This document shows, piece by piece, positions 6,050 through 49,949 of a stretch of DNA of 64,000 nucleotides. Origin of the DNA: Nitrospira defluvii (GTDB lineage: Bacteria; Nitrospirota; Nitrospiria; Nitrospirales; Nitrospiraceae); assembly GCA_000196815.1 (NCBI GenBank), contig FP929003.1, positions 2,937,501-3,001,500 of the forward strand, given 5' to 3'. The position numbers and the translations under genes are program-made. Under the pieces are notes generated by a model. The model had not been told where the DNA came from. It made no database searches and saw only the letters and a program-made list of their open reading frames with translations. Positions within the stretch are counted from its first letter, which is position 1; each line of letters opens with the position of its first letter.

Positions 6050-7738
6050 TTAGGCATGCGGCGAGAGAAAATCTTCCTCTCCGGATTGAATCCACGCAGC
6101 GAGCGCGCGGAGATCGGCCGCCGCGTGCAATTCCTGTCCTTTCGGCAGGCAGACCCTGGTCTGCAGGCTCGCCTTGGCATCGCGCTGATATTCCAACGCC
6201 ACCGCGCGCAGCGTCAGGGGGCGCGCGATGAACACGCCATAGGCAAACCGCTCCGCCAACTCGCGCTCCCGGGCCGTGAGCGAAGGAAGATCCTGAATGT
6301 GGGCCAACCGGTCCAGGTACTGCCCCCTCGATTCGGAGTCGACGGTGAACCCGAGACGGTCGTATCGTCCGGTCCCCGCGGTCAACACGGGAATGCCAAA
6401 ACTGGCCGCTTCAATCCCCACGGTTCCACGAACCGTCACACAATAGTCCATGACGGAATACAGGGACAGGGTACTCAGGCGACTGTCGGGTTGAATGATG
6501 CGCACATGCGGCGGCGGACTCCCCCCAAGCGAACGGATCGCCGTCAGCTCGGATGGCTCGGACCCGACTCCGTCTCTCATGTTCTTGACGATGTTGGCGG
6601 GATGAATCTTGACGATCCAGTTCACGCAAGGATTCGCATACGCCACCTTCATCGTCTCCACGAACCATTCTTCGTAGCTCTCGAACAGATCAGTTCCGTA
6701 GAAGAAGGTGCCGTCCCAGAAGATGTGCGGAAAGATGACGACGGTTTTTTTTCCATCCTCCAGGCCTAAAGTGCGCCGAACCTGAGCGGGATCCTCCAGC
6801 TTCGTGTGAAACTGTGTACCGACCTCGCTGTACCATTCGCCGCTGGTGTAGCTGCCGACCAATTCCCGCCGAAGGAGATTACGATCCGCCTCCGTCCACG
6901 GCTTGGCTTGTAATTCGCCCCACGTGGAGTCCGACAGCGAGGCCGGATGGACTTCGCGGTTTCCCCGACTGTAGCGCTTGAGCATCAATTGATTATTTCG
7001 GTGCGCGGCATTCCACGTGATCGTGTCGATGCCGGCGGCCAGACAGAGATCGAACAATTCTCCGCGCGGGCTGTACCCCGTATCCACGGACAGCACGAGT
7101 TGCGGGCGGAGGGTGTCGACGATGGCCTCCGCTGTCCTGGCATAACACATGGCGCGATGAAGAAACGGCAGGAGCGCGTCGCGAACACTCCGGTCTGAAA
7201 GATCGAGCCGCCCCACCCGCAAGTGACGCAATACCGTCGAGGCCGCATACTTTCCGACCCGGGCGCCGCAATAGTCGGCCTTGATCAGCTGCTCGAAGGA
7301 ACCGATGGATGCCATCACGTGCACCGCCTCGGCCATCGGCACCTGCCGGAAACAATCGTCCCAATACAGATGCTCTTGAACACCGATCTCACGGTAATAG
7401 GCGCCCATCCACCGGTCGTAATCCGTCAAGATTACCGGCCTATAGCCGGCCAACCGGAACGCCGTGACGAGAGCGATCTCAACCAACTGGCCCAAAGACC
7501 CCGAACTGACCACCAGCACCCGCTGATCGTCGGAGGATTCCGGGGGCGCGGCACGGCGAAACGCGGCCCCGTAGTCAGCGGCGAACCGTCGAAATGCTTG
7601 ATCGAGACCGGCTTCCTGATTACGGAACTCACGATCTACACTCTTTCGAAGATGGTACTGAAGAGCGCGAGCGGCGGGAAGCACGTGGGCGCGCGAAAGG
7701 ACGCGCTTGAGAGACGATTTCCAGTTGCGATGGGTCAT
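6050..7738 (-). CDS. Unassigned GT-B-like polysaccharide biosynthesis protein
   Basis: A 562-residue protein that I cannot assign to a named family. A Rossmann-like segment, RVLVVSSGSLGQLVEIALVT, lies at about residues 73-92. The C-terminal half has TVVIFPHIFWDGTFF, then NWIVKIHPANI and VTVRGTVGIEAASFGIPVLT. This series resembles the donor-binding halves of capsule (KpsS/KpsC-like), CDP-glycerol and Kdo-type transferases. There is no signal peptide and no membrane helix. It lies directly downstream of the SDR, neuC, neuB and neuA genes, so it may be the transferase that uses the CMP-nonulosonate. That link rests on position and a weak motif resemblance only. An A8 run in the gene stays in frame. 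Confidence 0.6.
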   Translation of the reverse strand: MTHRNWKSSLKRVLSRAHVLPAARALQYHLRKSVDREFRNQEAGLDQAFRRFAADYGAAFRRAAPPESSDDQRVLVVSSGSLGQLVEIALVTAFRLAGYRPVILTDYDRWMGAYYREIGVQEHLYWDDCFRQVPMAEAVHVMASIGSFEQLIKADYCGARVGKYAASTVLRHLRVGRLDLSDRSVRDALLPFLHRAMCYARTAEAIVDTLRPQLVLSVDTGYSPRGELFDLCLAAGIDTITWNAAHRNNQLMLKRYSRGNREVHPASLSDSTWGELQAKPWTEADRNLLRRELVGSYTSGEWYSEVGTQFHTKLEDPAQVRRTLGLEDGKKTVVIFPHIFWDGTFFYGTDLFESYEEWFVETMKVAYANPCVNWIVKIHPANIVKNMRDGVGSEPSELTAIRSLGGSPPPHVRIIQPDSRLSTLSLYSVMDYCVTVRGTVGIEAASFGIPVLTAGTGRYDRLGFTVDSESRGQYLDRLAHIQDLPSLTARERELAERFAYGVFIARPLTLRAVALEYQRDAKASLQTRVCLPKGQELHAAADLRALAAWIQSGEEDFLSPHA

Positions 7739-7768
7739 GAAGGCGCGCGGATGAGGTGCGATCTCCCG

Positions 7769-8767
7769 TTAAGTCATTTCATCGATCAGGTACGGCAACT
7801 CGGTGCTTTCCCATTTTTCAAAAATGCTGTTCATTTCAATGATCCGTCGGATGCCGTCTTCCAGCGTGACACGCGATTCAAACCCCAACAACCGTTTCGC
7901 CTTCTCGCCGGAACAGTAACGGCGATGGATCTCACGGCTCGCATGACGGTCGGTGCCTTGAAAGTCGGCGGCATATTTGATTTCGACCGGGGAATTCCCG
8001 CTCGCTTTGACCACGAGATCCGCCAGCTCTTTCAACGAGGTGGGCCGGTCGCTGTTGCCGAGATTGATCACCTGACCGACGGCTTCCGGCCTGAGCAGGG
8101 CCTCCACGACGCCCCGGGCCGTATCCTCACTGTAGCAATAGGAACGGATTTGATCGCCGCTGCCGTTGATCACGATCGGCTTTCCCGTCATCGCATTCTG
8201 AATGAACTTGGGCAGGACGAATTGGGCGGCCTGATAGGGGCCGTAGGCATTGAAGAAGCGCAGAATCACATGCTCGAATTCAGGATACCGTTGCGCATAC
8301 CCGATGCAGAGTTCCTCGCCGGCGAGTTTGCTCACCGCATAGACGGTCTTCCCCTGCGTGATGGTTTCTTCGGTGATGGGGTTCTCGATGGGTTCGCCGT
8401 AGACTTCCGACGAGGAGGCGAACACCAGCCGCTTGATCCGGTGTTGGATGGCACAGTCCAACACCCGCTTCGTGCCGTCCACATTGATTTCAAGGCAGCG
8501 CAGGCGATTGACCTCCGTCCGTCGCACACCGAGCAGTGCGGCCAGATGAATGACCGCCCCGCAGCCGTCCATGGCCTCGCGAATCGAGGAGATGTCGAGA
8601 ATCGACCCGTAAAAGACCTTCGTCTTTTCCGGCAGGGCCTTCCGGACACGAGCGATCTGCTCACCCAGGTCCAGCAGGTGCACCTCGATTCCCCGCCGAT
8701 CCAGTTCACGGCAAACCTGAATTCCGATACAACCGGCGCCGCCGGTGACCAATACAGGAGCATTCAT
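7769..8767 (-). CDS. NAD-dependent epimerase/dehydratase (extended SDR)
   Basis: A 332-residue extended short-chain dehydrogenase. The NAD-binding motif VTGGAGCIGIQV is at about residues 7-18, FASSSEVYGEP at 117-126 supplies the catalytic serine region, and Y143-AVS-K147 is the catalytic YxxxK. These are features of UDP-sugar 4-epimerases and 4,6-dehydratases. It lies 13 bases downstream of neuC. It could supply an epimerised or 4-keto sugar to the nonulosonate branch or to a different sugar of the repeat. The exact reaction cannot be read from the sequence. Confidence 0.85.
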   Translation of the reverse strand: MNAPVLVTGGAGCIGIQVCRELDRRGIEVHLLDLGEQIARVRKALPEKTKVFYGSILDISSIREAMDGCGAVIHLAALLGVRRTEVNRLRCLEINVDGTKRVLDCAIQHRIKRLVFASSSEVYGEPIENPITEETITQGKTVYAVSKLAGEELCIGYAQRYPEFEHVILRFFNAYGPYQAAQFVLPKFIQNAMTGKPIVINGSGDQIRSYCYSEDTARGVVEALLRPEAVGQVINLGNSDRPTSLKELADLVVKASGNSPVEIKYAADFQGTDRHASREIHRRYCSGEKAKRLLGFESRVTLEDGIRRIIEMNSIFEKWESTELPYLIDEMT

Positions 8768-8780
8768 AAATTCCGAGCCT

Positions 8781-9932
8781 CTAATAAGTCATCTGTTTGT
8801 TGAGGAGCTTGTCGAGATCGACATCTTCCAATACCTTGCAGATCCGCTCGGAGCTGTTGCCGTCTCCATAGGGATTCTCGCAGGTCTTCAATATCGTCCT
8901 GAAGCGATCGTCATGAAGCGCGCGCTCGATCGCCTCTCCGATCAGCCGACGGTCGAATTGAGGGACCGTAATGACATTGCAGGCCCGCATGCGGCCGGTC
9001 TGGCGGCTGCCGATGTCCAATGCCGGCAACTTGAACGACGGGGCTTCCAGAATGCCGACGCTGGAGTTGCCGATCAAGACCGACACGGCGGTCAACAAAC
9101 TTAGGAACACCTCGCGGTCCAGATTTTTGAACGTCTTAATCGTCGGGACCTGCTCGTACTGCCGGATCACGCCGATGATTTCCTGTCCTGCCGCATCCAC
9201 ATTGGGATAAATCACCAACGCCTGATGCCCGCTGGCCTTCACCGCCGCCAGAGTCTCTTCCATTTGTACTCTGGCGAGATGCACTTCCGCCAACACGGCA
9301 TGCTGAATGACCAGCAAGACCGGCTTGGTGAAATCCACCCCGAAGCGCTTTGCCAACTCGTCCCGATCCAGCTTCTTGCCGTGCACGACGTCGTCTAGTT
9401 GCGGAGCGCCGACGTTAAAAATCCGCCAGGGTTCTTCCCCCATTTTCCGCACCCGTTCGGCAGAATCCTCACAAGCCGGAAGGTGGATGTGAGCCAGCTT
9501 GGTAATGGCGTGACGGGCAGACCCGTCGATATGGCCGGACAGGTCGCCGGATTGAATGTGCGCAACCGGAATATTCATATAGGCCGCCGTCACCGTCGCA
9601 GCCAGGATCTCAGCACGATCCCCTGCCACCAGCAGAAGGTCCGGCTTCAGCATATCGAACACCTGCGCGAGACCCTGCATCTCGACGCCCAGCGATTTCG
9701 ACCAGGCCGTCGGTGTATCCCCGCCCACATACATGTCCACGCGGGCGGCCGGCGTAAATCCGTCTCGTACGATTTCATTGATCGACGATCCATATTCCTT
9801 CAACAGGTGCATGCCGGTCACGATGAGCTGCAATTCCAGCCGCTCGGACTGTTCGATCAAGTGCATCACCCGTTTGACATAGCCGTACGTAGCCCGGGCC
9901 TCGGACAGGACGGCGATTTTCCTCGGTTTCAT
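8781..9932 (-). CDS. neuC: UDP-N-acetylglucosamine 2-epimerase, hydrolysing (NeuC/LegG-like)
   Basis: A 383-residue protein beginning KIAVLSEARATYGYVKRVMH, close to the N-terminal pattern of NeuC-type hydrolysing epimerases. LLVAGDRAEILAATVTAAYM, VAHIQSGDLSG and the later IGNSSVGILEAPSFKLPALD match the UDP-binding motifs of the WecB/NeuC family. It converts a UDP-N-acetylhexosamine into the free 2-epimer plus UDP, giving ManNAc for NeuB or its bacillosamine-derived equivalent for LegI. The ATG overlaps the neuB stop (ATGA). Neighbours neuB and neuA make a nonulosonate pathway almost certain, although whether it acts on UDP-GlcNAc or a diamino sugar is not visible. Confidence 0.9.
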   Translation of the reverse strand: MKPRKIAVLSEARATYGYVKRVMHLIEQSERLELQLIVTGMHLLKEYGSSINEIVRDGFTPAARVDMYVGGDTPTAWSKSLGVEMQGLAQVFDMLKPDLLLVAGDRAEILAATVTAAYMNIPVAHIQSGDLSGHIDGSARHAITKLAHIHLPACEDSAERVRKMGEEPWRIFNVGAPQLDDVVHGKKLDRDELAKRFGVDFTKPVLLVIQHAVLAEVHLARVQMEETLAAVKASGHQALVIYPNVDAAGQEIIGVIRQYEQVPTIKTFKNLDREVFLSLLTAVSVLIGNSSVGILEAPSFKLPALDIGSRQTGRMRACNVITVPQFDRRLIGEAIERALHDDRFRTILKTCENPYGDGNSSERICKVLEDVDLDKLLNKQMTY

Positions 9933-10975
9933 GCGTTCAACTGCTCCCAGCGAATCTGACTGTCCTTCGGAATATCTGTTTTGGCGACCTTCCCGATCAC
10001 TTTCTTCAAATCTTTCGCCGCCACCGCACCGGGCCCCGGACTCGGTCGCTTCACCCAGACCATTGTCGGCGTAATGACCGTGCCGCGCGGAATCGCGACT
10101 TCCGACACGACGCTCTCGCGCGCCCAGGCGACAATTTCGCGTTCCTCCGGAAAAATCTGCCGTTCGGCGCCCCGTCCCCGGAACACCGCATCCACCCCCT
10201 TGACCAGCTCACTCAATTCATCCGGTTCGATCGATACGGGATGATCCGGCCCCGGCTGTTGCCGGTCGAGCGTGAAATGCTTCTCGATCAGACAGGCTCC
10301 CAAGGCGGCGGCCCCGATGCCGGTATAAATCCCTCGCGAGTGGTCCGACAAGCCGACCGGCACGGAGAAGAGCTCACGATACCTGGCAATCATACCCAGG
10401 TTTACCCGGTCGTAGGGCGTCGGGTACGCGGACACACAATGCGTCAAGGCGAACGGGGTCTTCAGTTGCCGCAACAGCGCAACCGTCTCTCCGACCTCTT
10501 CGATCGTGCACATCCCGGTCGAGACGATCATCGGTTTGCCCTTGCGGCCGATATGTTCGATCAGCGGCAGATTGGTCAGTTCACCGGACCCGGTCTTGTA
10601 CGCAGCCACCCCGAGCTCTTCCAGCATATCCGCGCCGATCCGGCTGAACGGCGTGCAGAGATACAGAATGCCCAAGGACTCGCAGAGTCGCTTCAGCTCA
10701 CGATGTTGATCGATCGACAGGTTGGTTTTATCCAGCGTCACATAGAGCGGCTCGGCAAAGTTCGCCGATTGCGGCGTCTCTCGCAACATCTCGTTGTCCA
10801 GGACATGGATCTGAAACTTGATGATGTGAGCGCCCATCGCATGCGCGATGTACACCATGCGTTTGGCGGTCTCAAAATCACCCTGATGATTGACCGCTGC
10901 CTCGGCGATCACCAACGGCGAATGGTCCGGTCCGATGCGATAGGGGCCGATGGGAATGGATTCGATCTCAACCAT
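9929..10975 (-). CDS. neuB: N-acetylneuraminate/legionaminate synthase
   Basis: A 348-residue synthase when started at the ATG preceded by GGAGGAGCAGC, the strongest ribosome-binding site nearby; a longer in-frame opening upstream only overlaps neuA. The barrel domain begins LVIAEAAVNHQGDFETAKRM and contains IIKFQIHVLDNEML, YKTGSGELTNLPLIEHI, MIVSTGMCTIEEV and FALTHCVSAYPTP, all hallmark NeuB/SpsE segments. The C-terminal SAF (antifreeze-like) domain covers roughly residues 285-345. It condenses a 2-acetamido-mannose-type sugar with phosphoenolpyruvate to give a nine-carbon acid. It overlaps neuA by 8 bases and neuC by 4. Confidence 0.93.
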   Translation of the reverse strand: MVEIESIPIGPYRIGPDHSPLVIAEAAVNHQGDFETAKRMVYIAHAMGAHIIKFQIHVLDNEMLRETPQSANFAEPLYVTLDKTNLSIDQHRELKRLCESLGILYLCTPFSRIGADMLEELGVAAYKTGSGELTNLPLIEHIGRKGKPMIVSTGMCTIEEVGETVALLRQLKTPFALTHCVSAYPTPYDRVNLGMIARYRELFSVPVGLSDHSRGIYTGIGAAALGACLIEKHFTLDRQQPGPDHPVSIEPDELSELVKGVDAVFRGRGAERQIFPEEREIVAWARESVVSEVAIPRGTVITPTMVWVKRPSPGPGAVAAKDLKKVIGKVAKTDIPKDSQIRWEQLNA

Positions 10976-11660
10976 GCTGCTCCTCCGTGAGACGCTGCGC
11001 CAGCACCGCCTCCGCCACAATAAAATCCAGGGGCTCATTGATATCGATGGCCTCGCGCGGATCCTCGACGACCACTCCATACCGCGTTCGGCCCAGGACC
11101 GATCGATCGCGCTCAAGCACATCGGTTTTCGTCACGTACACGGTGCTACTCTCTTCAAACAACGGCTGGCGTTCCTGCCGCCGTCTCGGCTGATCTGGAA
11201 ACAGGTATTCGAAGCGGCCGTCCTGCAGACGACCGTAACATTTGCGGGTCTCCGCCACCGTCATCACACAATCCAGTTGCGGATGTCGGATCGCCTCGGC
11301 AATGCAGCGATCGATCAGCCCCGTGGTCCTGAGCGGAGACGTGGGCTCCAGGGTGACGACATACTCAGGCCGATACCCGTCTTTTGCCAGCACCTCCAGG
11401 ACATGCAACAACGCCCATTCGGTCGGGGCTTGGTCGGTCGCCAACTCTGGGGGCCGCTCGATCACCTCCGCGCCATAGTCTCGCGCAACCCGGGCGATAT
11501 CGGGATGGTCGGTGGAGACGACACATCGATCAAGATAGGTCGAGCCCTTGGCGGCCTGGATCGTAAATGCCAGCAGCGGGGTGCCGTTCAACGGACGAAT
11601 GTTTTTCAAGGGAATCGATTTCGATCCCCCGCGGGCAGGAATGACCGCTAGGACATGCAT
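10968..11660 (-). CDS. neuA: CMP-N-acetylneuraminate cytidylyltransferase family
   Basis: A 230-residue nucleotidyltransferase starting MHVLAVIPARGGSKSIPLKN, the CTP-binding signature of CMP-sugar synthetases. It contains VVSTDHPDIARVARDYGAEV, and VVTLEPTSPLRTTGLIDRCI, and ends with the DIN-EPLDF segment. It activates the nonulosonic acid made by NeuB to its CMP form, the donor for a sialyltransferase. The frame is open further upstream, but that part is the antisense or overlapping frame of the gene before it, so I take the ATG that overlaps the preceding TGA by one base (TGATG). Confidence 0.92.
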   Translation of the reverse strand: MHVLAVIPARGGSKSIPLKNIRPLNGTPLLAFTIQAAKGSTYLDRCVVSTDHPDIARVARDYGAEVIERPPELATDQAPTEWALLHVLEVLAKDGYRPEYVVTLEPTSPLRTTGLIDRCIAEAIRHPQLDCVMTVAETRKCYGRLQDGRFEYLFPDQPRRRQERQPLFEESSTVYVTKTDVLERDRSVLGRTRYGVVVEDPREAIDINEPLDFIVAEAVLAQRLTEEQHG

Positions 11661-12031
11661 CAGGCCCCTGCCGCCTCCAGCACCTGCGCTGTATTCACCA
11701 CTTCCGCGTGCACCATGCGCAACCCCGAGATATGCCCGACCAGGTCCGTTCCGAACGGGGCCGGCTGCACCCGAGGTGTCGCATGGTACAGGGAGAAGTC
11801 GAAGTGGTTCAACGCATTCCCCTCCAGATAACGCGATGTTTCCAGATTCACCGACAAGAGTGTCCCGCCCGGTCTGAGCGTCCGCGCCATGAAACGGGGG
11901 TAGGCCGCGATGCGGGCACCGACCTCCTCCTCCCGCAGACACCGCACATAGTCCAACAACGTGCGCGCTTCTTCGCGGGTCGGCGAGAACGCCGTCTGAA
12001 ACATGGTCTTGTCGCGAAGCGTAAATTTCAT
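11660..12031 (-). CDS. Short protein resembling the C-terminal part of a sugar O-methyltransferase (possible remnant)
   Basis: A 123-residue product if begun at ATG; a TTG at 12049 would add six residues but has no Shine-Dalgarno sequence. The middle reads YVRCLREEEVGARIAAYPRF then MARTLRPGGTLLSVNLE, which resembles the last helix and strand of putative sugar O-methyltransferases, yet the SAM-binding glycine motif is absent. The upstream sulfotransferase stop lies immediately before it, so there is no room for the missing N-terminal domain. It may be a degraded methyltransferase or a small stand-alone domain. It is tightly packed between the sulfotransferase and neuA. Function unassigned. Confidence 0.5.
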   Translation of the reverse strand: MKFTLRDKTMFQTAFSPTREEARTLLDYVRCLREEEVGARIAAYPRFMARTLRPGGTLLSVNLETSRYLEGNALNHFDFSLYHATPRVQPAPFGTDLVGHISGLRMVHAEVVNTAQVLEAAGA

Positions 12032-12049
12032 ATCGCGTAGTCCCGGCAA

Positions 12050-13177
12050 CTATGCAAGCGGCGAGAGCAGGACCCGGCACAGATAGAGCCGGCGCTGAAT
12101 CAGGGCACGCGCCAACCGGACCTTCGAGGAGGCGTTCATATATTCCCATTGGTCCGGCGCCAGCCACTGCAGGAACAGCGGCAACTTGGCCGGGACCTGC
12201 GCGGCCTCCTGCTCGGAAAAATATCCCAACCGCCGACCGAGTTGATAGGTCCGGAGTAAGATCAACTTTCGCTCGCGTTCAGTCAGAATGTCATCGTACC
12301 CATAGGCCTTCGCCATATCGGAGACGACCTCCGCGGGTGTCTCCACGCCTTTCAAGCTGGAATTGATTGGCAGCGACTTCGTATGCCGACCGCCCAGAAC
12401 GGTTTGAACCGTCGGCTCTTCGGGAGGCGCCACGCCCAGCCAGGAGCAAATATCGGTGACCGTGCGAGTCGGCGCATCGCAGATATCTTCATAGCGAACG
12501 AGATAGTGATGCGTCGGGTCCGTCGTAAGGCCACGCAGCGTAAATTCCGCATGCGGTATCCATCGGGATTCCAGTTGTAACCGGAGAATGTCCCCGCCTT
12601 GAAACCAGAAGGGCTTTTGTTTCAGCACCATGTCCGTACGTTTGAGCGAACTGTAATTGGAATAGGGATGCCGCATGATGTGAATACATTTCATGCCGGG
12701 AAACAGGGCCTGGTAGCGGGAAAGATCGGAGACTTCGATCGACTTGAACATCAGCAGCGGCGTAGCCGGCAGGTTTCGCTGGTCGTAACAGAGGCGGATC
12801 GCATCCAGATAGGATTCCAGATCGTGTTTCGCATCGCCGGTCACGCGGGCCATGATGCGCTCGAGCGGAACTCCGTCGGGTGTGATGGGCTGTACCAGCT
12901 TCTCCAGATAGGTCTGCTTGAGTTCATCAAGCTGGTCGGCTGCCCAGGCTCGAAACAACTGCCGCTGCCGCTGCTCGAACGTCTCCCCTGCTTGACCCGG
13001 CAGGTGCGACGCACAGGAAGCCAACGTCCGTTTCACGGCGCTCCTCAGCGAACGCGGCGCAAAACTGCGCAAGTAGTTCAGTTCGATCGGGTAGATCCAC
13101 AGGCCGGGACTGCCGTCCAGCAGCCGCATGAGGAGCGACGACCCGTTGCGACCGGCGCCGAAAATACCAACCAGCAC
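12050..13177 (-). CDS. Sulfotransferase family protein
   Basis: A 375-residue protein with both PAPS-binding elements of the sulfotransferase fold. The 5'-phosphosulfate loop GAGRNGSSLLMRLL is at about residues 7-20. The 3'-phosphate motif with RHPYSNYSSLKR lies at residues 169-180. The GTG start is preceded by GGAGGGCATCC. Such enzymes transfer sulfate from PAPS to hydroxyls of carbohydrates or lipids in the cytoplasm. The APS kinase gene cysC is about 6 kb away in the same transcriptional direction, consistent with local PAPS supply. The acceptor is inferred to be the cluster's glycan. Confidence 0.85.
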   Translation of the reverse strand: MLVGIFGAGRNGSSLLMRLLDGSPGLWIYPIELNYLRSFAPRSLRSAVKRTLASCASHLPGQAGETFEQRQRQLFRAWAADQLDELKQTYLEKLVQPITPDGVPLERIMARVTGDAKHDLESYLDAIRLCYDQRNLPATPLLMFKSIEVSDLSRYQALFPGMKCIHIMRHPYSNYSSLKRTDMVLKQKPFWFQGGDILRLQLESRWIPHAEFTLRGLTTDPTHHYLVRYEDICDAPTRTVTDICSWLGVAPPEEPTVQTVLGGRHTKSLPINSSLKGVETPAEVVSDMAKAYGYDDILTERERKLILLRTYQLGRRLGYFSEQEAAQVPAKLPLFLQWLAPDQWEYMNASSKVRLARALIQRRLYLCRVLLSPLA

Positions 13178-14034: not shown

Positions 14035-15366
14035 TCAGTGGAGGGCAGCCGGGGCAGGGGCCGAACGGCAGCGATCCACCATGTCCTGAACAAGACTCAA
14101 CATTTTCGGAACGACGACATCCGACCGATAATAGGTCTCGAACGTGTGCTGTCCCCCCTGACCGATTCGCCTTCGAAGCACCTCATCGTCCACTGCCGAT
14201 ACAATCAGCTCCGCCAGTTCATCGGGCGTCTTCCCCAACAAGGCATTGACCCCGTGCTCGATTTCAGGCATCGCCAGTCCGCTGTTCTCATGCATGATGA
14301 CACAGGTGCCGAGGGCCCAAGCGAGCAGAATCCTGGTATTCCCCACCAGAAAGTCGGCGTTCACATTCGTGAGCACCAGGAAAGCGGACGACGATCGGAA
14401 CTCCTCATTGATGTCCTCCACCCACCCGCGGATCTTGACCCGCCGATCGTTGAGCGCGGCGGCCGAAGCAGCCGACGGTGTGCCTTTCCCCAGCAGATGG
14501 ATTTCAAACGGGCGATCCTTGAACCGGGCCGCAAGTCGAGGCAAGAGTTCCCGCCCCAGGTACGTCAGGGCGAAGGTATTGCCGGTCGCGCCGAGATTGC
14601 CCACACTGCCGATGATCTTGATCGGACGCGGCTGCGAGACGGACAGCGAGACAGGCCGCGGAGCGGGTTCGACGACCGGCCACATGTTTTGCAAATAGAT
14701 CGAATGCGGATGCCCGTGAACTCGATAAAAATCCGCATCCAACCGTGAATTGTTGGCCGTGACCTCGCAGGCATTCATCATGCTGATATTGAGCCGCTTT
14801 CGTCGTTCATTCCGTACCCGCTCGAACCACAACCACAGACGATCCTTTATCGAGGCCAACGGAAGACCGAACAAATCGGGATGTCGGAGTCGCGCCTGCA
14901 TCGGCAGATGATCCGGGTTCCCGTAATACACGAACTTCGGAACGCCTGAAATGTGATAGGTCGCGGCTAACGCCTCCCAACTCCAAATACTCAGAATGGC
15001 ATCCGCACCGGCCTCGCGCACCCGGCGTTCCACCATGCTCCCGAGACCGGAGGCGGGAAACAGGCGGCGCAGGGTCAACGAGGTAAACAATCGTCTAAGT
15101 CGTGACACCAGGCCTCGTTTGGAGGACAGGTCCGCCACGTCTTCGACGTACAGCATGGGGCAGACTACAACGCCGGGAAGCCTCACCTCGCGAAGCGTCT
15201 GTTCGGCCTGCTGCGCGGCCGCGCTTCCGCGAGGATCCCGGAAGATTACTTGGAGACACACCGAATGTCCGAGCTGCTGCGCCTTCTCCACCACTTCATG
15301 CCCCACCACCTCGATCGCTTCACCGCCGGCATGAGGCGCATTGGACAACAGGACAAAAATCTTCAT
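14035..15366 (-). CDS. Glycosyltransferase family 4
   Basis: A 443-residue protein. The N-terminal part starts KIFVLLSNAPHAGGEAIEVV, and a DXD-free donor half follows with LLGKGTPSAASA and AFLVLTNVNADFLVGNTRIL, then LAWALGTCVIMHENSGLAMP. This is the GT4 layout with the usual E-rich motif replaced by a less conserved version, so the family call is a little weaker than for its neighbours. The start overlaps the stop of the Gfo/Idh gene (ATGA). It is followed by about 64 bases before the methyltransferase gene. Confidence 0.72.
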   Translation of the reverse strand: MKIFVLLSNAPHAGGEAIEVVGHEVVEKAQQLGHSVCLQVIFRDPRGSAAAQQAEQTLREVRLPGVVVCPMLYVEDVADLSSKRGLVSRLRRLFTSLTLRRLFPASGLGSMVERRVREAGADAILSIWSWEALAATYHISGVPKFVYYGNPDHLPMQARLRHPDLFGLPLASIKDRLWLWFERVRNERRKRLNISMMNACEVTANNSRLDADFYRVHGHPHSIYLQNMWPVVEPAPRPVSLSVSQPRPIKIIGSVGNLGATGNTFALTYLGRELLPRLAARFKDRPFEIHLLGKGTPSAASAAALNDRRVKIRGWVEDINEEFRSSSAFLVLTNVNADFLVGNTRILLAWALGTCVIMHENSGLAMPEIEHGVNALLGKTPDELAELIVSAVDDEVLRRRIGQGGQHTFETYYRSDVVVPKMLSLVQDMVDRCRSAPAPAALH

Positions 15367-19394: not shown

Positions 19395-19937
19395 TCAGAG
19401 ATGGCCACGGTTGACGACCTCCAGGATACGCCCGACCGATACAGACGGAGATTCACGACTGGTATCCACGACGATGTCGGCCTGGAGCGGCTCTTCATAG
19501 GGATCGGACACGCCGGTGAACTGCTGAATCTCTCCCCGCAACGCCTTCGCGTACATGCCTTTGACGTCCCGCCGGATACATTCCTCAACCCCGCAGCGCA
19601 CCCACACCTCGACAAACGATCCCGGTCCTCCTACCTTCTCAATCATCGCGCGCACTTCGTTCCGGACGGCTCGAAAGGGCGAGACCGCCGCCACGATGCT
19701 GCAGACTCCGTGTTTGGTCAACACCTGGCAGACCCACCCGATCCGCAGGATGTTGGTGTCCCGATCGGCGCGGGAGAACCCAAGCCCTTTTGAAAGATGG
19801 GTGCGGACGACATCGCCATCCAACACTTCCACATTGGTCAGGCCCTGCGCCAGCAGGCTTCGAAAGAGCATGTTGGCCAGGGTCGTCTTGCCTGCGCAGG
19901 GCAACCCCGTCAGCCAGATGGTCAACGCCTTCTTCAA
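19395..19937 (-). CDS. cysC: Adenylylsulfate kinase
   Basis: A 180-residue P-loop kinase starting at TTG, five bases after TTGGAG. The Walker A motif GLPCAGKTTLA is at residues 11-21. EVLDGDVVRTHLSKGLGFSR and RADRDTNILRIGWV are diagnostic of APS kinase, and VEVWVRCGVEECIRRDVKGM is the lid and effector region. It phosphorylates adenosine 5'-phosphosulfate to PAPS. No ATP sulfurylase gene lies in the window, so APS must come from elsewhere. Its place in a glycan cluster containing a sulfotransferase suggests dedicated PAPS supply for sulfation rather than assimilation. Confidence 0.92.
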   Translation of the reverse strand: MKKALTIWLTGLPCAGKTTLANMLFRSLLAQGLTNVEVLDGDVVRTHLSKGLGFSRADRDTNILRIGWVCQVLTKHGVCSIVAAVSPFRAVRNEVRAMIEKVGGPGSFVEVWVRCGVEECIRRDVKGMYAKALRGEIQQFTGVSDPYEEPLQADIVVDTSRESPSVSVGRILEVVNRGHL

Positions 19938-19964: not shown

Positions 19965-22076
19965 CTACGTCGAACTCGGTGCCATAGAAGAAATCGTGAA
20001 CACTCCTTCCACCGGAAGCGGGCCTTCCCAGCTCCAGCGGAGAAAAGGAGCCCGCCGCGCCCTGCCATATTGCTCCGCCACACTCTCCTCATCGAGACGC
20101 GGGGCGATGGCTCCAGGCGTTCCATTCGCGGACAACCGCGGACCGTCCAGCCAGAACCGCTGCCTGGGGGTCACCACCGACCATCCGTTTTCCGCGGGCT
20201 GCAACGAACAATGAGGCGCAAAGGTCAACGTCCATTCCAAACGATGCGGGTGAGAACCGCTCACGGGACTGAACAGATGATCCGTGACGCGCCACGACCC
20301 GTTCAGCCAGTCGGCCCGCAACTCGCGCCGGTGCCTCACCGGGTGGAAGAACCGTTCATATCCATCGTGGTCCGCCGCGGCCTGTTCCACGGGTCCACCG
20401 GTTTCCCATTGGAAACGGTGCAGCCGGCTATCCGGGTGCAAACAAAAGAACTTCCCAGGAATGAGACGGTTCTGCTCCGCTTGATCCACCCTAACGGTTG
20501 AGTGGTAGAGGGTGCTGCGAAATCGATTATAGGATTGCGGGTCGGAAGTATAGAGAAAACAACCCGAATCCACAAGAATATCTTCCCCGCCGAGGTGCAA
20601 CTCCACTGCGAGCAGGTCGTTGTGCTTGTGGGTTCCGACACCCCCCGATCCAAGCGGATTGCAGTTGAGCAAGGCATAGTCGGCCCGCCCGCGCAGTATA
20701 TAGAGTCCTGCCTCCGGAAAGGCCCGGCTCCCGATCTGTGCCGAGACTGGCTCCCTCCTCCACGCGGCACAGCGGAGACCACCGAACCACAACCCTTCGA
20801 CCCACGAGGGGCCAGCCGCCGCCCACCAGTCCGGACGATCGAACAACACCGCGCCGACGGCGAGCAGGTGGCGGTGATCCCGAACATCGGCCTGCCCGTA
20901 CCCGGTTAAAATATGCAGGCGACCGTTATCGGCGTCTCCGATCTGCGGTGCCAGACCATTGGGCTTGGTATAACCCTGAACGAACTCACACATCTTCCGC
21001 AAACGATCATGAAAGGTCGGCGGCAACTCCACCCCATAGTAACGGCACAGCACGCCCGACGACAGAAACATTTCCGTCACCAAGCGGTGATAGGACAGAC
21101 TCGACTCATAGTGGGCGCCGTCGGCGAGCACCTGCCGATCCATCTCACGCACCAACTCTCGAAGCGCAAACGCCTTCCAACCCTCTGCATCACGGACTTC
21201 CTTCAAGCAAAGTCCGAGATAGAGTAATCCCACGAGATCAGCCAGGTAGTGATTGGTCGTGACTCCATCGTCGCGGACTTCGAGATTGCCCATAAGGAAC
21301 CGCCCGTGAGCCACCAGCGACGCCAGTACCTCCGTCAGCCACGCCTCTGTCATGAGCGGCGACTCCGCCAACAAGCCGAGCGACCACAACCAGTTGACGG
21401 CGCGGATTGCGACATCCATGGGACAGGCCCAGTTGACCCCCTGCGCGGTCGGATTCGCGTCGATCCAGCTGGTCATTTGTGCCAAACATTCCCTTGCATA
21501 CTTTTCGTCTCCGCTCAGGAGGGCTGTCTGCGCCAGCAGCACGAGGTGGTGACCACGTGACAATTCCCATGGCACCTTGATATCGACCCCGACTTCATGG
21601 CCATGGGCCACGTCAAGAAAGCACTGCTCGGGATTCCAGCGGTAGCCGGACTTAAAATCCCGATGCCAGTCGATCATCGTTCCCAATGCCACGGGGCCGG
21701 AACCCAGGAGGTCGAACACATGCCCGCATATCCGGTCGGCCGATTCGATGGTCGCCTCCAGTACCCCTGGCGCCTGCAGTTCATAGAGCCCGCGAATCGC
21801 CGCCACACTCTCCGCTGAAACCGGGAGACGCTGGTTCAAGGAGCCACGTATTCGCCCCACCACAGCGGAGAGGTCTCCTGGAGTGACCCCTAATGCGGCT
21901 GCCAGTTCCCCTCGCGAAACCCGGTAGGGCTGACGCAACACGTGAGCACGATGCCGCCTTACGCGCAGGGGGCGAATGGCCTTGCGGATGCCCATGCGCA
22001 CAGTTGCAAGCAGTCCGATATGCTGCACTTTGGACAGGAGACGGGCTGCAAAATCGAGCGGCGCCTCGCTACCCAT
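19965..22076 (-). CDS. Heparinase II/III family protein (polysaccharide lyase-like)
   Basis: A 703-residue protein when begun at the ATG preceded by GGGAGTGATTCCC; an in-frame GTG at 22148 would add 24 residues. The alpha-toroid half has NWACPMDVAIRAVNWLWSL, TTNHYLADLVGLLYL and HYESSLSYHRLVTEMFL. The C-terminal half has GGVGTHKHNDLLAVELHLGG and ILVDSGCFLYTSDPQSYNRF, core motifs of heparinase II/III C-terminal domains. I see no signal peptide or lipobox at the N terminus, which is odd for a lyase of exported glycans. It may edit or release glycan during synthesis. It precedes cysC by 27 bases. Confidence 0.86.
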   Translation of the reverse strand: MGSEAPLDFAARLLSKVQHIGLLATVRMGIRKAIRPLRVRRHRAHVLRQPYRVSRGELAAALGVTPGDLSAVVGRIRGSLNQRLPVSAESVAAIRGLYELQAPGVLEATIESADRICGHVFDLLGSGPVALGTMIDWHRDFKSGYRWNPEQCFLDVAHGHEVGVDIKVPWELSRGHHLVLLAQTALLSGDEKYARECLAQMTSWIDANPTAQGVNWACPMDVAIRAVNWLWSLGLLAESPLMTEAWLTEVLASLVAHGRFLMGNLEVRDDGVTTNHYLADLVGLLYLGLCLKEVRDAEGWKAFALRELVREMDRQVLADGAHYESSLSYHRLVTEMFLSSGVLCRYYGVELPPTFHDRLRKMCEFVQGYTKPNGLAPQIGDADNGRLHILTGYGQADVRDHRHLLAVGAVLFDRPDWWAAAGPSWVEGLWFGGLRCAAWRREPVSAQIGSRAFPEAGLYILRGRADYALLNCNPLGSGGVGTHKHNDLLAVELHLGGEDILVDSGCFLYTSDPQSYNRFRSTLYHSTVRVDQAEQNRLIPGKFFCLHPDSRLHRFQWETGGPVEQAAADHDGYERFFHPVRHRRELRADWLNGSWRVTDHLFSPVSGSHPHRLEWTLTFAPHCSLQPAENGWSVVTPRQRFWLDGPRLSANGTPGAIAPRLDEESVAEQYGRARRAPFLRWSWEGPLPVEGVFTISSMAPSST

Positions 22077-22240
22077 GGGAATCACTCCCAACGATGCTCT
22101 CGACAGGGAGGAGGAGGAGACGGCGGATGGAACCCGACTGGCTGTCACGCCACCCGACTTCCAGCAAGCTGCGGAAAAACTTGATGGTTGCGCAACAGGC
22201 TACGATCAATTCATGCGCCGTGGAGGCATAACAATCACCC

Positions 22241-40816: not shown

Positions 40817-42961
40817 TCATAATCGTGTCCCGAACTCGCGCCAGGACCAGAGACGATTCGAATCGAGCGCGACATTCGCCACCTCGTAGAGAGCCATCAA
40901 CTCCCGGTCGCGAGCAGCAAGCCGTCGTCGCCGGCCCGGCTCGTGCTCGGATAGCGCTTCGAAATTGAGCGTGGCCTCTTGAAACGACTCGGTCGAGAAC
41001 GAATACAATAACAGCCCGTCCGGGCTGGCCAGGCCGACCAGATTGTCGTAGACACTGGTGAGATAGGCCACCTGGTCCGGCAGACAATCCCGCACCAACA
41101 GACAGGTCAGGTCACGTCCGGCAAACGCTCCCACGGCAGGCAGAATGCCGTTGAGCGCCAGCAGGGTCGGAGCCACATCGACCTGACTGGCAATGGTCGA
41201 TACCGTCCGCGGGCGATAGGTGGCCGGAGTACGCAGCGACTCGTCCATCCAGATCAACAGCGGCGATGCAAAATGACCCGCCTTTCGCTCGATGTCGCTA
41301 CTCCCCACCGGCTCGTGCCGGCCATGATCACCCAGAATGACGACGACGGTATTCCGCAAGAGTCCCTCGCGAACGAGCCTGGTGAACACCCGCTCCAACT
41401 CGTGATCCGTATATCGCAGAGCGCCGACATACTTGTCCTGCACCCGCTCCTGCAGCAGACTCACCTCGGGATGGTTCTGCGGGGCCGCGAAGGGATGGTG
41501 GGTCGACAACGTGAGGGTCGTCAGAAAAAACGGCCTGCCCTCCGCCTGGCGTTGCTTGATGCGTTCGTAACAGAGATCGAACAAGGCGCCGTCCACGATA
41601 CCAAGGCCCATTCGTTCCGCATCCTTGGGAAAATCTCCCTCGTCGATCAGCTGCTGCAAACCATTGCGCGCCACGAATGACTGAAGCCGGTTCAGGTCCC
41701 GATGCTGCCCGATCACCATCTCCGTTCGGTAGCCCTGACGCTGTAACAAAGACGGCAGACAGAGGTAATCGTGGGCATAGCGCGTTTTCATCGCGGCGGC
41801 CCCCTGCCGCGGAAAGGCGCTGCAGAGGGTCGCAAACAGTCCCCGTGACGTTTGAACGCCGTTGGAGAAAAAGTTCTCGAAGTAGACGCTCTCCTGCTTC
41901 AGGCGATCCAAAAACGGTGTCCCCTGAACCTCGCCGTACGTCTGTTCGAGATACCGGCGATCCAGCCCTTCGAGAAACACCAACAGGATGTTCGCCTGCC
42001 CGGGTAACCGAACACCGTCCGAGGAAGCGGCCATGGTTCTGACCAGGGGATACCGTTGATCGACGAACGCTTCCCCGGGGCCGAGCAATCGCTGCGCCGT
42101 CTGGACGGCGACTTCATAGGGCATCGCCTCGGCGTTTGCCCGCTGTTCCATCGCCCCCCGTGAGACGACGGCAATGCGTAACGCCTCAGCCGCAAAGAGG
42201 ACGGGATTCTGCGCCAGCGTGTAATAGACCATGCTTCCGATCGGCGCGATCCGGATCCCGTAGGGGCCGGAATGGTGAAAGCCGGCTCCGCCTGCCACCA
42301 GTGCGACTAGGAGGAAGGTGTTCGCCTGAAACCCCGAGCCGGGCCGCCAGCGAGCCAGCGCCGGCACAATGGCGCAGGAAAAACTCCACCACCACAGTCC
42401 CATCGCCACAGCCTGAATCCCCAGGAAGAGCGCGAGCCGAGCGGCCCATTTTCCGGTCTCGCTTAACTCTGCGCTGGTTTGCCGCATCGCCTGCGCATTG
42501 GTACTGTCCGGTGTCGAGGCAGGCGCAAAGAGGTCGCCGACATATTCGAGAAACACGAAGTCCATATGCTGCCGGTTGAACCCGTAGTACCCCATGTCCA
42601 CACACAGCAGAACAAACAGCAACAAGCCGGTCAGCACAGACCCCACATGCAGCCCGGATCGAAAGGACAGAAGGAAGGGTTGGGTCAGACGGCTCAATCC
42701 GCTCCAGCCATGCCCTCGCAGAGCCCATGCCCCTGCCCCGACCCCGGCCAGCACCAACGCAAAGGTGGCGGTAATGAAATCCCCCCGTACACCGACGACC
42801 AGGGTCTTCAGCAGGAGCGGCAGACTGGGAACTTCGTGCGCAAACGCGTCGCGCAGCAGAAACATCCGCTCCGCCATTTGCATCACGACGAAGAGGATCC
42901 ACCAGAACAGCACGCTTTTGCGAATCGAGGCGCGGGCGTCCGCCCATCGTTGCATCATCAT
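40817..42961 (-). CDS. LtaS-type sulfatase-fold membrane transferase
   Basis: A 714-residue protein. About five N-terminal transmembrane helices occupy residues 1-240, followed by a large periplasmic alkaline-phosphatase/sulfatase domain. ILLVFLEGLDRRYLEQTYGE has the first metal-binding glutamate, ENFFSNGVQTSRGLFATLCS the threonine nucleophile region, and VVILGDHGRHEPVGSS the D-H-G-x-H metal site. This is the LTA synthase / phosphoglycerol and phosphoethanolamine transferase layout. In a diderm, neighbours argue for decorating LPS core or a periplasmic glycan with a phospho-substituent taken from phospholipid. It starts at three consecutive ATGs overlapping the GT4 gene. Confidence 0.86.
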   Translation of the reverse strand: MMMQRWADARASIRKSVLFWWILFVVMQMAERMFLLRDAFAHEVPSLPLLLKTLVVGVRGDFITATFALVLAGVGAGAWALRGHGWSGLSRLTQPFLLSFRSGLHVGSVLTGLLLFVLLCVDMGYYGFNRQHMDFVFLEYVGDLFAPASTPDSTNAQAMRQTSAELSETGKWAARLALFLGIQAVAMGLWWWSFSCAIVPALARWRPGSGFQANTFLLVALVAGGAGFHHSGPYGIRIAPIGSMVYYTLAQNPVLFAAEALRIAVVSRGAMEQRANAEAMPYEVAVQTAQRLLGPGEAFVDQRYPLVRTMAASSDGVRLPGQANILLVFLEGLDRRYLEQTYGEVQGTPFLDRLKQESVYFENFFSNGVQTSRGLFATLCSAFPRQGAAAMKTRYAHDYLCLPSLLQRQGYRTEMVIGQHRDLNRLQSFVARNGLQQLIDEGDFPKDAERMGLGIVDGALFDLCYERIKQRQAEGRPFFLTTLTLSTHHPFAAPQNHPEVSLLQERVQDKYVGALRYTDHELERVFTRLVREGLLRNTVVVILGDHGRHEPVGSSDIERKAGHFASPLLIWMDESLRTPATYRPRTVSTIASQVDVAPTLLALNGILPAVGAFAGRDLTCLLVRDCLPDQVAYLTSVYDNLVGLASPDGLLLYSFSTESFQEATLNFEALSEHEPGRRRRLAARDRELMALYEVANVALDSNRLWSWREFGTRL

Positions 42962-46807: not shown

Positions 46808-47882
46808 GGCCTGCCATCCTGCCCGGTGCTGAACCGAGTCGCAACAATCGCTCCAACTCCTCCTGCCCCGACACAATCTCAGTGCGAAGCCTCACGGCCC
46901 AGCAAGCCTCTTTCGCGCCCAACAACAGCGCAACCTTGTCGGCATCTTTCTCCGTCGTCACCAGCAGGTCGGCGCCGCCGGCTTTCGCCTTGGCTCGAAT
47001 GGTGTCGAGCATGTCACGCGTGTAGTGCACATGATCGGGAAATGCCAGCATCTCGACCACGGTGATACCCAATCCGTCGACCAACGCGCGAAAGGACTCC
47101 GCATTGCCGATCCCGCTGAAGAGCAGAGCCGACCGGCCGCGAAACGCATCCAACGGAAGCCGTTCGGCCGTCCCCACGCGCCGGAACTCCTCCGCCCGGA
47201 ATCCCACACGAACCAGCGACGGAAGTGAGCCGCAGGCATCGAGCAATAGACACCGCACCGACTCCCCTCCGTGCACCTCATCGACCCGGGTAATAAGGAC
47301 GGCCGACGCACGCGCCGCCGCCGAGAGGGGCTCCCGTAATCGCCCGATCGGCAATGCCGCCTGGATCCCCGCTGCGTCCGTCGCATCCACCAGCAGCAGA
47401 TTCACATCGCGATGGAGCTGGACGTGCTGAAACCCGTCGTCCAACACAAAACAATCCACCGGGAGTTGCGCCAACACCCACTGGCCAAGCGCATATCTGT
47501 CCGCCCCCACCGCCACGACGGCCTGAGGACAGCGACGCGCGATCAGATAGGGCTCATCCCCGGCTTCGTCCGGCCCCGCTAAAATCCGTTGCCCGTCTGA
47601 GACCAGCAATTGCGGAGCCCTGCTGCGCCGCCGATACCCTCGGCTCAGAATCGCCACGCGTTTGCCCTGCGCCGTCAGTCGTTCCACCAGGTACATGACG
47701 ACCGGCGTTTTGCCTGTGCCACCGACGGTGAGATTCCCGACACTGATCACAGGGCGAGGCAACCGGCGCGTGGAAAACCACCCTTGTGTATAACACCACA
47801 GGCGAAACCTGGCCGCGAGTTCGTAGGGATACCCGAGCCACCGTAACCAGGACCGCGGCCCTCTCGACATGGTCGCTGCCAT
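46800..47882 (-). CDS. lpxK: Tetraacyldisaccharide 4'-kinase
   Basis: A 360-residue kinase. The Walker A motif VGNLTVGGTGKTPVVMYLVE (about residues 48-67) is specific for LpxK. DEPYLIARRCPQAVVAVGAD, DCFVLDDGFQHVQLHRDVNL (the DDGxQH motif) and LLVTTEKDADKVAL near the end are also diagnostic. It phosphorylates the 4' position of the lipid A disaccharide at the inner membrane. It overlaps the waaA stop by one base (TAATG), so the acceptor-making kinase and the Kdo transferase are co-translated. Confidence 0.95.
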   Translation of the reverse strand: MAATMSRGPRSWLRWLGYPYELAARFRLWCYTQGWFSTRRLPRPVISVGNLTVGGTGKTPVVMYLVERLTAQGKRVAILSRGYRRRSRAPQLLVSDGQRILAGPDEAGDEPYLIARRCPQAVVAVGADRYALGQWVLAQLPVDCFVLDDGFQHVQLHRDVNLLLVDATDAAGIQAALPIGRLREPLSAAARASAVLITRVDEVHGGESVRCLLLDACGSLPSLVRVGFRAEEFRRVGTAERLPLDAFRGRSALLFSGIGNAESFRALVDGLGITVVEMLAFPDHVHYTRDMLDTIRAKAKAGGADLLVTTEKDADKVALLLGAKEACWAVRLRTEIVSGQEELERLLRLGSAPGRMAGHA

Positions 47883-49237
47883 TACGATTGCCGACTCGAC
47901 AACTCACGCCCCTGTTCAACCCGCGCGTTTTTCGAGGCCTCCCGTGCCGGCAGAAACGTCGCGATGACCTCCGCGCTGCGCTGGAGCGCGCCCTGGTTGT
48001 CTGTCACGACCCGCTGCGCCGCCTGCCCCATCCGCTGCAACGCGGCGGGATCGCGAAGGAGCGCTCGCAAATCCTGCGCAAGAGCCTGTTCGTCCCGTAC
48101 CACCGATCCTCCCTGCGCCTTCACCAGGAGCGCCGCCACTTCGGCACAATGGTCGGTGTGCGGACCGAACAGCACCGGTTTCCCCCAGACTGCCGGCTCC
48201 AAGAGATTATGCCCGCCCACCGGCGCGAGAGTGCCCCCGACAAAGGCCACCACCGCGTCCCGATACAACAGGGCCAACTCCCCGCGCGTATCCAGGACCA
48301 ATACCCGCGCGCCCTCGCCCGCCATGGGCGCTTGCCCGCCTGTGCTACGCCGGCTCACCGTGAGGCCTTTCAGCAGGATCATCTGTTCCACCTGCGCCGC
48401 CCGTTCAATATGGCGGGGAGCCAGGACCAAGCGGAGCTCGGGGTACTCAGGACTCAGGATCCGATAGGCATTGACGATCGCTTCTTCCTCGCCGGGATGG
48501 GTGCTCCCGGCCACCAGCAACAGTTCCCGGTCGGTCAGCCCGAGCGCCGCTTTCGACACGGCCGTGCCGCCGGCCCCCGCCTTGGGAATCGGTTGATCGA
48601 ACTTGATGTTGCCGGTGCACCGAACCCGTGACGGCTCGGCGCCTAACTCGATCATACGCTGCGCATCCCGCTCCGATTGCATGAGGCAACAGCTGATCAT
48701 GTTCAGCATGGTCCGGTAGAAATCCCGGATAACCGGCACACGTTGCCGCTCAAACGAACGGGTGGACAATCGTCCGTTCACGAGAATCGACGGCACATTC
48801 CGCCGCTGCAAACTCCGCAGGATATTCGGCCAGAGTTCCGTCTCGACAAAAATATACAGACTCGGCTTGAGACGGTCGATCGCCTGATTGACGACCCATG
48901 GAAAATCGAGCGGCGCGTACCGGTGCTCGGCCACGCCCTCCAACCGCTGCTCCACTGCCTCGCGCCCGGTTTCGGTCACGGTCGAAACGACCAACCTCGT
49001 CTCGGGGTACCGCCGACGCAACTCCCGCACAAGCGGCGCCACCGCGACCACCTCGCCTAACGACACGGCATGAATCCAGATGCAACCAGCCCTGCCGCCT
49101 GGCTCGGAAGCGGGCGGCTCCGCGCGCAGTCCCAGTCGCTGCGGCAACCCGCGACGGCAACGCTGCTTGGCCAACAAGACGAACAGGATAATCGGGGAAA
49201 CCAGGAGCAGAAGACTATTGTAGAGCAGATACCACAT
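47882..49237 (-). CDS. waaA: 3-deoxy-D-manno-octulosonic acid (Kdo) transferase
   Basis: A 451-residue GT30 enzyme. The ATG overlaps the TGA of the correctly framed DUF374 gene (TGATG); an in-frame GTG one codon earlier also exists. A single N-terminal helix (YLLYNSLLLLVSPIILFVLL) anchors it. IWIHAVSLGEVVAVAPLVRE carries the catalytic glutamate. LVAGSTHPGEEEAIVNAYRI and AFVGGTLAPVGGHNLLEPAV are diagnostic KdtA motifs. It adds Kdo to lipid IVA. Mono- versus bifunctionality cannot be told from sequence. Confidence 0.95.
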   Translation of the reverse strand: MWYLLYNSLLLLVSPIILFVLLAKQRCRRGLPQRLGLRAEPPASEPGGRAGCIWIHAVSLGEVVAVAPLVRELRRRYPETRLVVSTVTETGREAVEQRLEGVAEHRYAPLDFPWVVNQAIDRLKPSLYIFVETELWPNILRSLQRRNVPSILVNGRLSTRSFERQRVPVIRDFYRTMLNMISCCLMQSERDAQRMIELGAEPSRVRCTGNIKFDQPIPKAGAGGTAVSKAALGLTDRELLLVAGSTHPGEEEAIVNAYRILSPEYPELRLVLAPRHIERAAQVEQMILLKGLTVSRRSTGGQAPMAGEGARVLVLDTRGELALLYRDAVVAFVGGTLAPVGGHNLLEPAVWGKPVLFGPHTDHCAEVAALLVKAQGGSVVRDEQALAQDLRALLRDPAALQRMGQAAQRVVTDNQGALQRSAEVIATFLPAREASKNARVEQGRELSSRQS

Positions 49238-49949
49238 CACGGACCAGCCCGCAGGACGGCCTCATCGGCCTCGATCGTCATGCGGTTCAGCGTCTCTTCC
49301 AACTCCCGGCGGAACCGCTCGAGGTCGTCGGCCGAGGCATCGTGCGGCACGCTGATCGGCGGCCCCAGGAGAAAGAGGCCCCGCGAGAACGGATAGGGCA
49401 TGATGAACCGGTCCCAGCTCGCGAAGAGTTTTTTTTTGAGCAGCCGAAGGCCATCGGGATGATCGGCAGGCCGGTGGCCCGCGCCAACTGCACCACACCG
49501 ACCTTCGCAATCTGACGCGGGCCCTTCGGTCCGTCAGGGGTCAGTACCAGGTTGCCGCCGGACCGCCCCAGGCGAATCAGCTGTCGAAACGCTTCCGCGC
49601 CCCCTCTGGTACTGGAGCCCCGAACGGCGTCCAATCCGAACCGTGCCACGATGCGGCGGATCAATTCGCCGTCGCGATGCTGACTGATCAACACATGGGC
49701 TTCGAGTCCCGGAATGGCCAGCGGCATCATCAGCTGCTGAGCATGCCAGAAGGCCAGGATTACGCGCTTCTCTTCTGCAAACAAGCGGTTCACATGCTCT
49801 GAGCCTTCGGTGCGCCAGGTCATCGTGCGGCGCAGCATCTGAATGATCCGGTAGCCGACGGGAGGCACCACCGCGACCTTGAGCGCATTGACGATCCGCT
49901 TCTGCAACGGCTGCGGCTGAGGACCCGCCGCCGATCGATCAGTTGTCAT
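49237..49949 (-). CDS. DUF374 lysophospholipid acyltransferase family protein, out of frame at an A9 run
   Basis: From the ATG after GGGAGTTCA, the frame encodes WRTEG, LAFWHAQQLMMPLAIPG, LISQHRDGELIRRIVARFGL, SSTRGGAEAFRQLI and LTPDGPKGPRQIAKVGVVQL, all DUF374 motifs. At nine As (minus strand) the frame shifts. As read, it ends at 49287 with an unrelated tail. One extra A restores LFASWDRFIMPYPFSRGLFL and a TGA that overlaps the waaA ATG, giving a normal 237-residue protein. The family probably acylates lipid A or a related lipid. The shift is a sequencing or assembly error, a real mutation, or transcriptional slippage; this cannot be decided from the sequence. Confidence 0.82.
49429..49437 (-). 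other. A9 homopolymer: frameshift or slippage site in the DUF374 gene
   Basis: Nine consecutive Ts on the plus strand (nine As in the mRNA). The conserved reading frame before it and the conserved one after it differ by one base, requiring ten As. Runs of nine or ten As are classic polymerase-slippage sites as well as typical homopolymer-error sites. Confidence 0.85.

Follow-up and report, generated by a model that had tools for sequence, protein, structure and literature searches.

In a 64,000-nucleotide stretch of the Nitrospira defluvii genome (contig FP929003.1, positions 2,937,501 to 3,001,500; hereafter the window), a 562-residue protein, P562, is encoded in one run with NeuC, NeuB and NeuA. 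We propose that P562 is probably the transferase that uses the cytidine monophosphate (CMP)-activated nonulosonate made by these three enzymes. The first-pass annotation had singled out P562 as the candidate, and this choice is strengthened by a (K/R)XHP motif, by homology to KpsC, by covariation with the neuCBA allele and by CMP-ulosonate genes beside its relatives in other phyla. It had also placed P562 correctly in the neu gene run, but had overlooked the gene that lies between P562 and NeuC, as well as the presence of WaaA in the window. The genes concerned are the following.

6050..7738, minus strand: P562, candidate CMP-nonulosonate transferase, 562 residues, glycosyltransferase B (GT-B)-like, KpsC/KpsS-related
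7769..8767, minus strand: extended short-chain dehydrogenase/reductase (SDR) sugar epimerase/dehydratase, 332 residues (Pfam Epimerase)
8781..9932, minus strand: NeuC, hydrolysing uridine diphosphate (UDP)-N-acetylglucosamine 2-epimerase (TIGR03568)
9929..10975, minus strand: NeuB, nonulosonate synthase, 348 residues (Pfam NeuB and SAF)
10968..11663, minus strand: NeuA, CMP-nonulosonate synthetase, 231 residues (start backed by the homologue in locus L022)

P562 is related to KpsC

Profile comparisons indicate that the C-terminal half of P562 is homologous to KpsC, a retaining transferase of 3-deoxy-D-manno-oct-2-ulosonic acid (Kdo) from CMP-Kdo. Indeed, a 19-member profile of the P562 family searched against the PDB recovered KpsC chains at E values of 7.7e-8 to 4.6e-4 (6mgc at 7.7e-8, 6mgb at 1.9e-7); up to E 10, it recovered no chain of a sialyltransferase. 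With hhalign, the alignment of the close P562 clade matched three KpsC segments over its C-terminal half with 93% probability (E 2.6e-7), against 0.1% for a control NeuC alignment, and the wider family reached 97.8% (9.3e-13) in profile-profile comparison. P562 alone or its close clade found no PDB chain of note; a wider profile or a profile-profile comparison is needed to reach KpsC. Distant Nitrospira relatives of P562 (34-38% identity) exceed the Capsule_synth cut-off with 24-27 bits, and P562 homologues are the sole Capsule_synth matches at E 0.01 in the Nitrospira genomes searched. P562 falls within a known superfamily as a variant and is not a new kind of system. NCBIfam and PHROGs returned nothing for P562, and its relatives were not found in viral contigs.

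Three motifs of P562 have counterparts in KpsC.

6713..6727, minus strand: H338-I-F-W-D342, aligned to KpsC QXXXD, with D342 as candidate nucleophile
6599..6610, minus strand: K377-I-H379-P380, (K/R)XHP CMP-binding motif
6410..6424, minus strand: T439-V-G441-I-E443, aligned with KpsC as counterpart of the SxxGxE phosphate/ribose-binding segment

In the hhalign alignment, P562 PHIFWDGTFFYG lies over KpsC DQTFNDMSVTYG, which places D342 on Asp160, and KIHP aligns to the KVHP of KpsC. Asp160 is the proven nucleophile of KpsC (PMC10148158), and (K/R)XHP binds CMP in Kdo transferases and sialyltransferases alike (PMC12887879). Binding of the CMP-nonulosonate through KIHP and TVGIE is thus strongly inferred from these alignments. 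All 42 distinct family members carry (K/R)XHP, and 41 have E443 (the remaining one is truncated). Position 342 is an Asp in 29; in the other 13 it is a Glu that follows an Asp, as part of an SSxDE-like pattern. A second P562-like subfamily, found at other neuB loci (L041, L042, L047, L098), has SSxDE in place of HXXXD; in L041 and L042 its gene immediately adjoins neuB.

As the first-pass annotation had stated, no recognised sialyltransferase was found in the window: a Pfam scan of 40 window proteins detected no sialyltransferase family. The search was extended to the whole genome and 28 congeners, with zero matches to PF06002 (GT42), PF07922 (GT52), PF11477 (GT80), PF07388 (GT38) and the Maf model PF01973; positive controls matched for the GT38 and Maf models only, and the GT42, GT52 and GT80 negatives are therefore weaker. 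P562 itself matches none of the Pfam models of GT38, GT42, GT52 and GT80.

P562 follows the genes for CMP-ulosonate synthesis

Among 29 Nitrospira genomes, 20 have both a P562 family member and a strong NeuB, one has P562 only, three have NeuB only and five have neither, absences that depend in part on a single-sequence search. The co-occurrence gives a Fisher p of 0.0025, computed without ancestry correction. The P562-only genome is a 5 kb contig, and two of the three NeuB-only cases are fragments. In nearly all paired genomes both genes share one neighbourhood; in G008 they lie on two short contigs (L028 and L050) whose ends carry the same SDR gene. Furthermore, in loci L032-L034 the neuCBA genes are only 31-39% and P562 34-37% identical to those of the window, against 80-86% for the flanking methyltransferase: a divergent neuCBA set comes with a divergent P562, both having been swapped together.

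Elsewhere in the phylum, the family is found near neuB in eight genomes (G187, G305, G304, G151, G157, G108, G051, G170) and 12-21 kb from it in three (G249, G210, G045); four further genomes are uninformative in this respect. In G305 (locus L091, 7992-11519), a single protein of 1175 residues consists of two complete P562 modules, both of which keep HxxWD, KVHP and TxGIE, and is flanked by two neuBC sets. The N-terminal half resembles the L032 type most closely, the C-terminal half the window type; likewise, one of the neuBC sets is nearest to L032 (62-75%) and the other to the group of the window and L093 (43-52%). Such a match between the halves and the flanking sets is expected of modules that each use a sugar of their own. 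In Azospirillum, Legionella and Synechococcus, all outside the phylum, relatives of P562 accompany a NeuA or NeuB gene; in Pseudosulfitobacter, one lies beside kdsA/kdsB. What these loci have in common is therefore the synthesis of a CMP-ulosonate. The gene of one further relative (G044, contig C55, 7427-8430), close to a contig end, contains an in-frame TAG stop and also changes frame.

Like KpsC and WbbB, P562 could use CMP-Kdo as donor and transfer Kdo, its proximity to neuCBA reflecting a shared lipopolysaccharide (LPS) locus and nothing else. The homology to KpsC, the family member beside kdsA/kdsB and the lipid A and Kdo genes within the window would all agree with such a role. We nonetheless hold it to be improbable, as P562 follows the neuCBA alleles, the double fusion included, and NeuB or NeuA genes accompany most of its relatives.

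The sugar made by NeuC, NeuB and NeuA

The three enzymes had been annotated as a full path to a CMP-nonulosonate, and this assignment is upheld. NeuC passes TIGR03568 (408.6 bits, cut-off 235.9). The nearest solved relative of NeuB is the Neisseria NeuB/SiaC (242 bits, against 126 for pseudaminate synthase); it meets both the Pfam NeuB and SAF models and falls under the N-acetylneuraminate synthase cut-off of TIGR03569 (329.9 against 399.65). The nearest solved relatives of NeuA are CMP-N-acetylneuraminic acid (Neu5Ac) synthetases (99 bits, against 38 for KdsB). An N-terminal extension of 49 residues in the NeuB frame (longer reading frame from 11122) and one of 168 residues in the NeuA frame were rejected as upstream-start artefacts, the L022 homologue supporting the shorter NeuA start. 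Altogether, this profile favours a sugar whose C5 substituent is equatorial, be it Neu5Ac or another, and argues against pseudaminate.

The first-pass annotation had also noted the lack of an aminotransferase of the legionaminate (Leg) or pseudaminate (Pse) pathways. This holds genome-wide among the DegT-family proteins classified (the best six of twelve matches), none of which reaches the LegC or PseC cut-offs, and a legionaminate pathway via unlinked genes is unsupported by this classification. As for LegB, the model TIGR04180 is the nearest NCBIfam model to the SDR, which scores 155.9 bits, far under the cut-off of 475. Among the neu loci compared, this SDR is confined to window-type Nitrospira clusters, where it is more conserved (92-98% identity) than P562 (69-96%).

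It is possible, if somewhat less than an even prospect, that the sugar is a derivative of Neu5Ac, either through action of the SDR on the UDP-sugar ahead of NeuC or through a Leg-type pathway fed by an unlinked aminotransferase, a situation compatible with the role proposed here for P562. The conservation of the SDR in all window-type clusters, its nearest model being LegB, and the NeuB score under the Neu5Ac-synthase cut-off point in this direction; the distance of the SDR from the LegB cut-off and the failure of every classified DegT aminotransferase to pass LegC or PseC point away from it. Plain Neu5Ac, the earlier preference, is favoured and not proven, because the conserved SDR could alter the sugar or the acceptor.

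A possible retaining mechanism

We propose the following scheme. NeuC, NeuB and NeuA would make the CMP-nonulosonate, and P562 would add the sugar to a surface polysaccharide or LPS precursor. The C-terminal Rossmann domain of P562 would hold CMP through KIHP (377-380) and TVGIE (439-443). The most likely course, on the model of KpsC, would be a double displacement in which Asp342 attacks C2 of the sugar and CMP departs, after which the acceptor hydroxyl would displace the covalent sugar-enzyme intermediate with the anomeric configuration retained. Retention follows only if a double displacement via D342, a residue taken from the KpsC alignment, is right, and taken alone we see it as evenly poised. 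In its complete form, the proposal makes P562 a retaining sialyltransferase that passes through a covalent sialyl-Asp342 intermediate and yields Neu5Ac, or a sugar resembling Leg, in beta linkage; we regard this form as tentative and less likely than not. The analysis establishes the genes, their motifs, the KpsC homology and the linkage to CMP-ulosonate genes, whereas the donor (Neu5Ac or another equatorial-C5 sugar), the acceptor, the part played by Asp342 and the retention are inferred. No general base was identified in P562.

P562 might also transfer the CMP-nonulosonate with inversion, D342 then serving as general base or in a structural role. We judge this rather unlikely, although (K/R)XHP also occurs in inverting sialyltransferases (PMC12887879), the Gln of QXXXD is not conserved in P562 and sialic acids are without the axial C5 group that retaining Kdo enzymes use. 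Against inversion stand the homology to the retaining KpsC, with an Asp at the nucleophile position, and the lack of similarity to any solved sialyltransferase up to E 10.

Several observations weigh against reading P562 as a KpsC-like, retaining transferase of the NeuCBA product. First, P562 scores 15.2 bits against Capsule_synth (PF05159), whose curated cut-off is 20. The Gln of QXXXD, which contacts the Kdo carboxylate, is a His (H338) in the P562 clade; the strict motif being absent, P562 is not assigned to GT99 or GT107. This His-for-Gln change may be part of how an equatorial C5 is accommodated. The family also lies away from neuB in three genomes of one genus (G124, G110, G089; L094-L096). 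Structure predictions, made with AlphaFold2 for the full length and built from five sequences only, gave a poor full-length model (predicted local distance difference test, pLDDT, 47.8), whose PDB matches (2-epimerases, template modelling scores of 0.2-0.3) were set aside. The model of residues 300-520 is a Rossmann domain (pLDDT 66.4, predicted template modelling score 0.72) that matches GT-B proteins broadly, KpsC 6mgb, 8fuw and 6mgc included. KpsC 6mgb ranks fourth in Foldseek, level with epimerases and other GT-B enzymes. No sialyltransferase is among the 50 matches listed for this model, a negative that excludes nothing. Thus, the structural comparison suggested in the first-pass annotation does place KpsC among the matches, but generic GT-B proteins score the same, and the domain model is compatible with a KpsC-like protein without being decisive. 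Finally, a 2026 paper predicted that retaining Kdo-like enzymes would not evolve readily for C5-equatorial sugars, because in the known retaining enzymes the acceptor is positioned by means of an axial C5 group (PMC12887879).

The surrounding locus

The genome that contains the window is complete and measures 4.32 Mb; it belongs to a nitrite-oxidising Nitrospira bacterium. The neu genes belong to one compact minus-strand run, in the order sulfotransferase, methyltransferase remnant, NeuA, NeuB, NeuC, SDR and P562, which continues downstream of P562 with an AsnB-like amidotransferase, an acyltransferase, a GT4 enzyme and a methyltransferase. Other features are as follows.

11660..12049, minus strand: methyltransferase-like gene remnant, 129-residue open frame (348 residues in L022)
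12050..13177, minus strand: sulfotransferase (Sulfotransfer_3), kept upstream of neuA in window-type clusters
1585-2820 and 14035-15366: GT4 glycosyltransferases of the same run
47882-49240: WaaA, lipid-A Kdo transferase (PF04413), a recognised CMP-ulosonate transferase inside the window

The two GT4 genes, as members of the same run, raise the question of whether one of them uses the CMP-nonulosonate, P562 then having another role. This appears very unlikely: the GT4 at 1585-2820 keeps 87% identity in L032 although neuCBA changes, and in L029 and L030 a replacement stands in for the GT4 at 14035 with neuCBA unchanged. Moreover, we know of no GT4-type enzyme that uses a CMP-ulosonate.

Wzx, Wzy/ligase, heptosyltransferases, WaaA, LpxB and LpxK are encoded in the surrounding locus, and the product is therefore probably an LPS-linked or comparable surface glycan. 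An adenosine 5'-phosphosulfate (APS) kinase (19395-19937) shares this locus with the neuA-adjacent sulfotransferase; together they suggest that the glycan is perhaps sulfated. The same LPS/exopolysaccharide locus encodes a heparinase II/III-like protein (19965-22148) and a sulfatase-family protein (40817-42961). Between the sulfotransferase and neuA, an internal deletion has shortened the 348-residue methyltransferase-like gene seen in L022 to the 129-residue frame of the window, and L023 has the same short gap.

Comparison with known transferases and significance

KpsC (GT99/GT107, retaining, beta-Kdo) shares with P562 the (K/R)XHP motif, the SxxGxE segment and the Asp at the nucleophile position, and its dual-module organisation is paralleled by the double P562 of L091. 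P562 differs from KpsC by its HXXXD in place of QXXXD, by an N-terminal half that is not recognisably similar and by its linkage to NeuCBA and not to Kdo genes. By description, KpsS1 of Acinetobacter baumannii (GT118), a retaining pseudaminyltransferase, is also a KpsC/KpsS-related CMP-nonulosonate transferase (PMC12887879). Its sugar, Pse, has an axial C5 substituent, whereas NeuC and NeuB of the P562 locus imply an equatorial one; the donor of P562 should differ from CMP-Pse because NeuC is no part of the Pse pathway. KrkA (GT140), the Kdo transferase of E. coli K13, is likened to P562, again by description only, through its (K/R)XHP-type CMP site and its Asp nucleophile (PMC12887879); it differs by its Kdo donor and its fusion to a ribosyltransferase. 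The GT38, GT42, GT52 and GT80 sialyltransferases share with P562 the HP motif and the CMP-sialic acid donor, predicted in the case of P562, but they invert and have no profile match to P562 or to the rest of the genome. To our knowledge, all known sialyltransferases invert and do not make beta-linked products, and the KpsC-type mechanism is so far known to us only for Kdo and pseudaminic acid.

Environmental nonulosonate clusters are often without a recognisable transferase, so that the last step of the pathway often cannot be annotated. The P562 family would fill this gap in Nitrospira and elsewhere. The Nitrospira cluster also offers a natural and direct test of the prediction made for retaining KpsC-like enzymes and equatorial-C5 sugars (PMC12887879). 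If our proposal is true, a rare covalent glycosyltransferase mechanism would be extended to the sialic-acid class, and P562 would provide an enzyme for making beta-sialosides.

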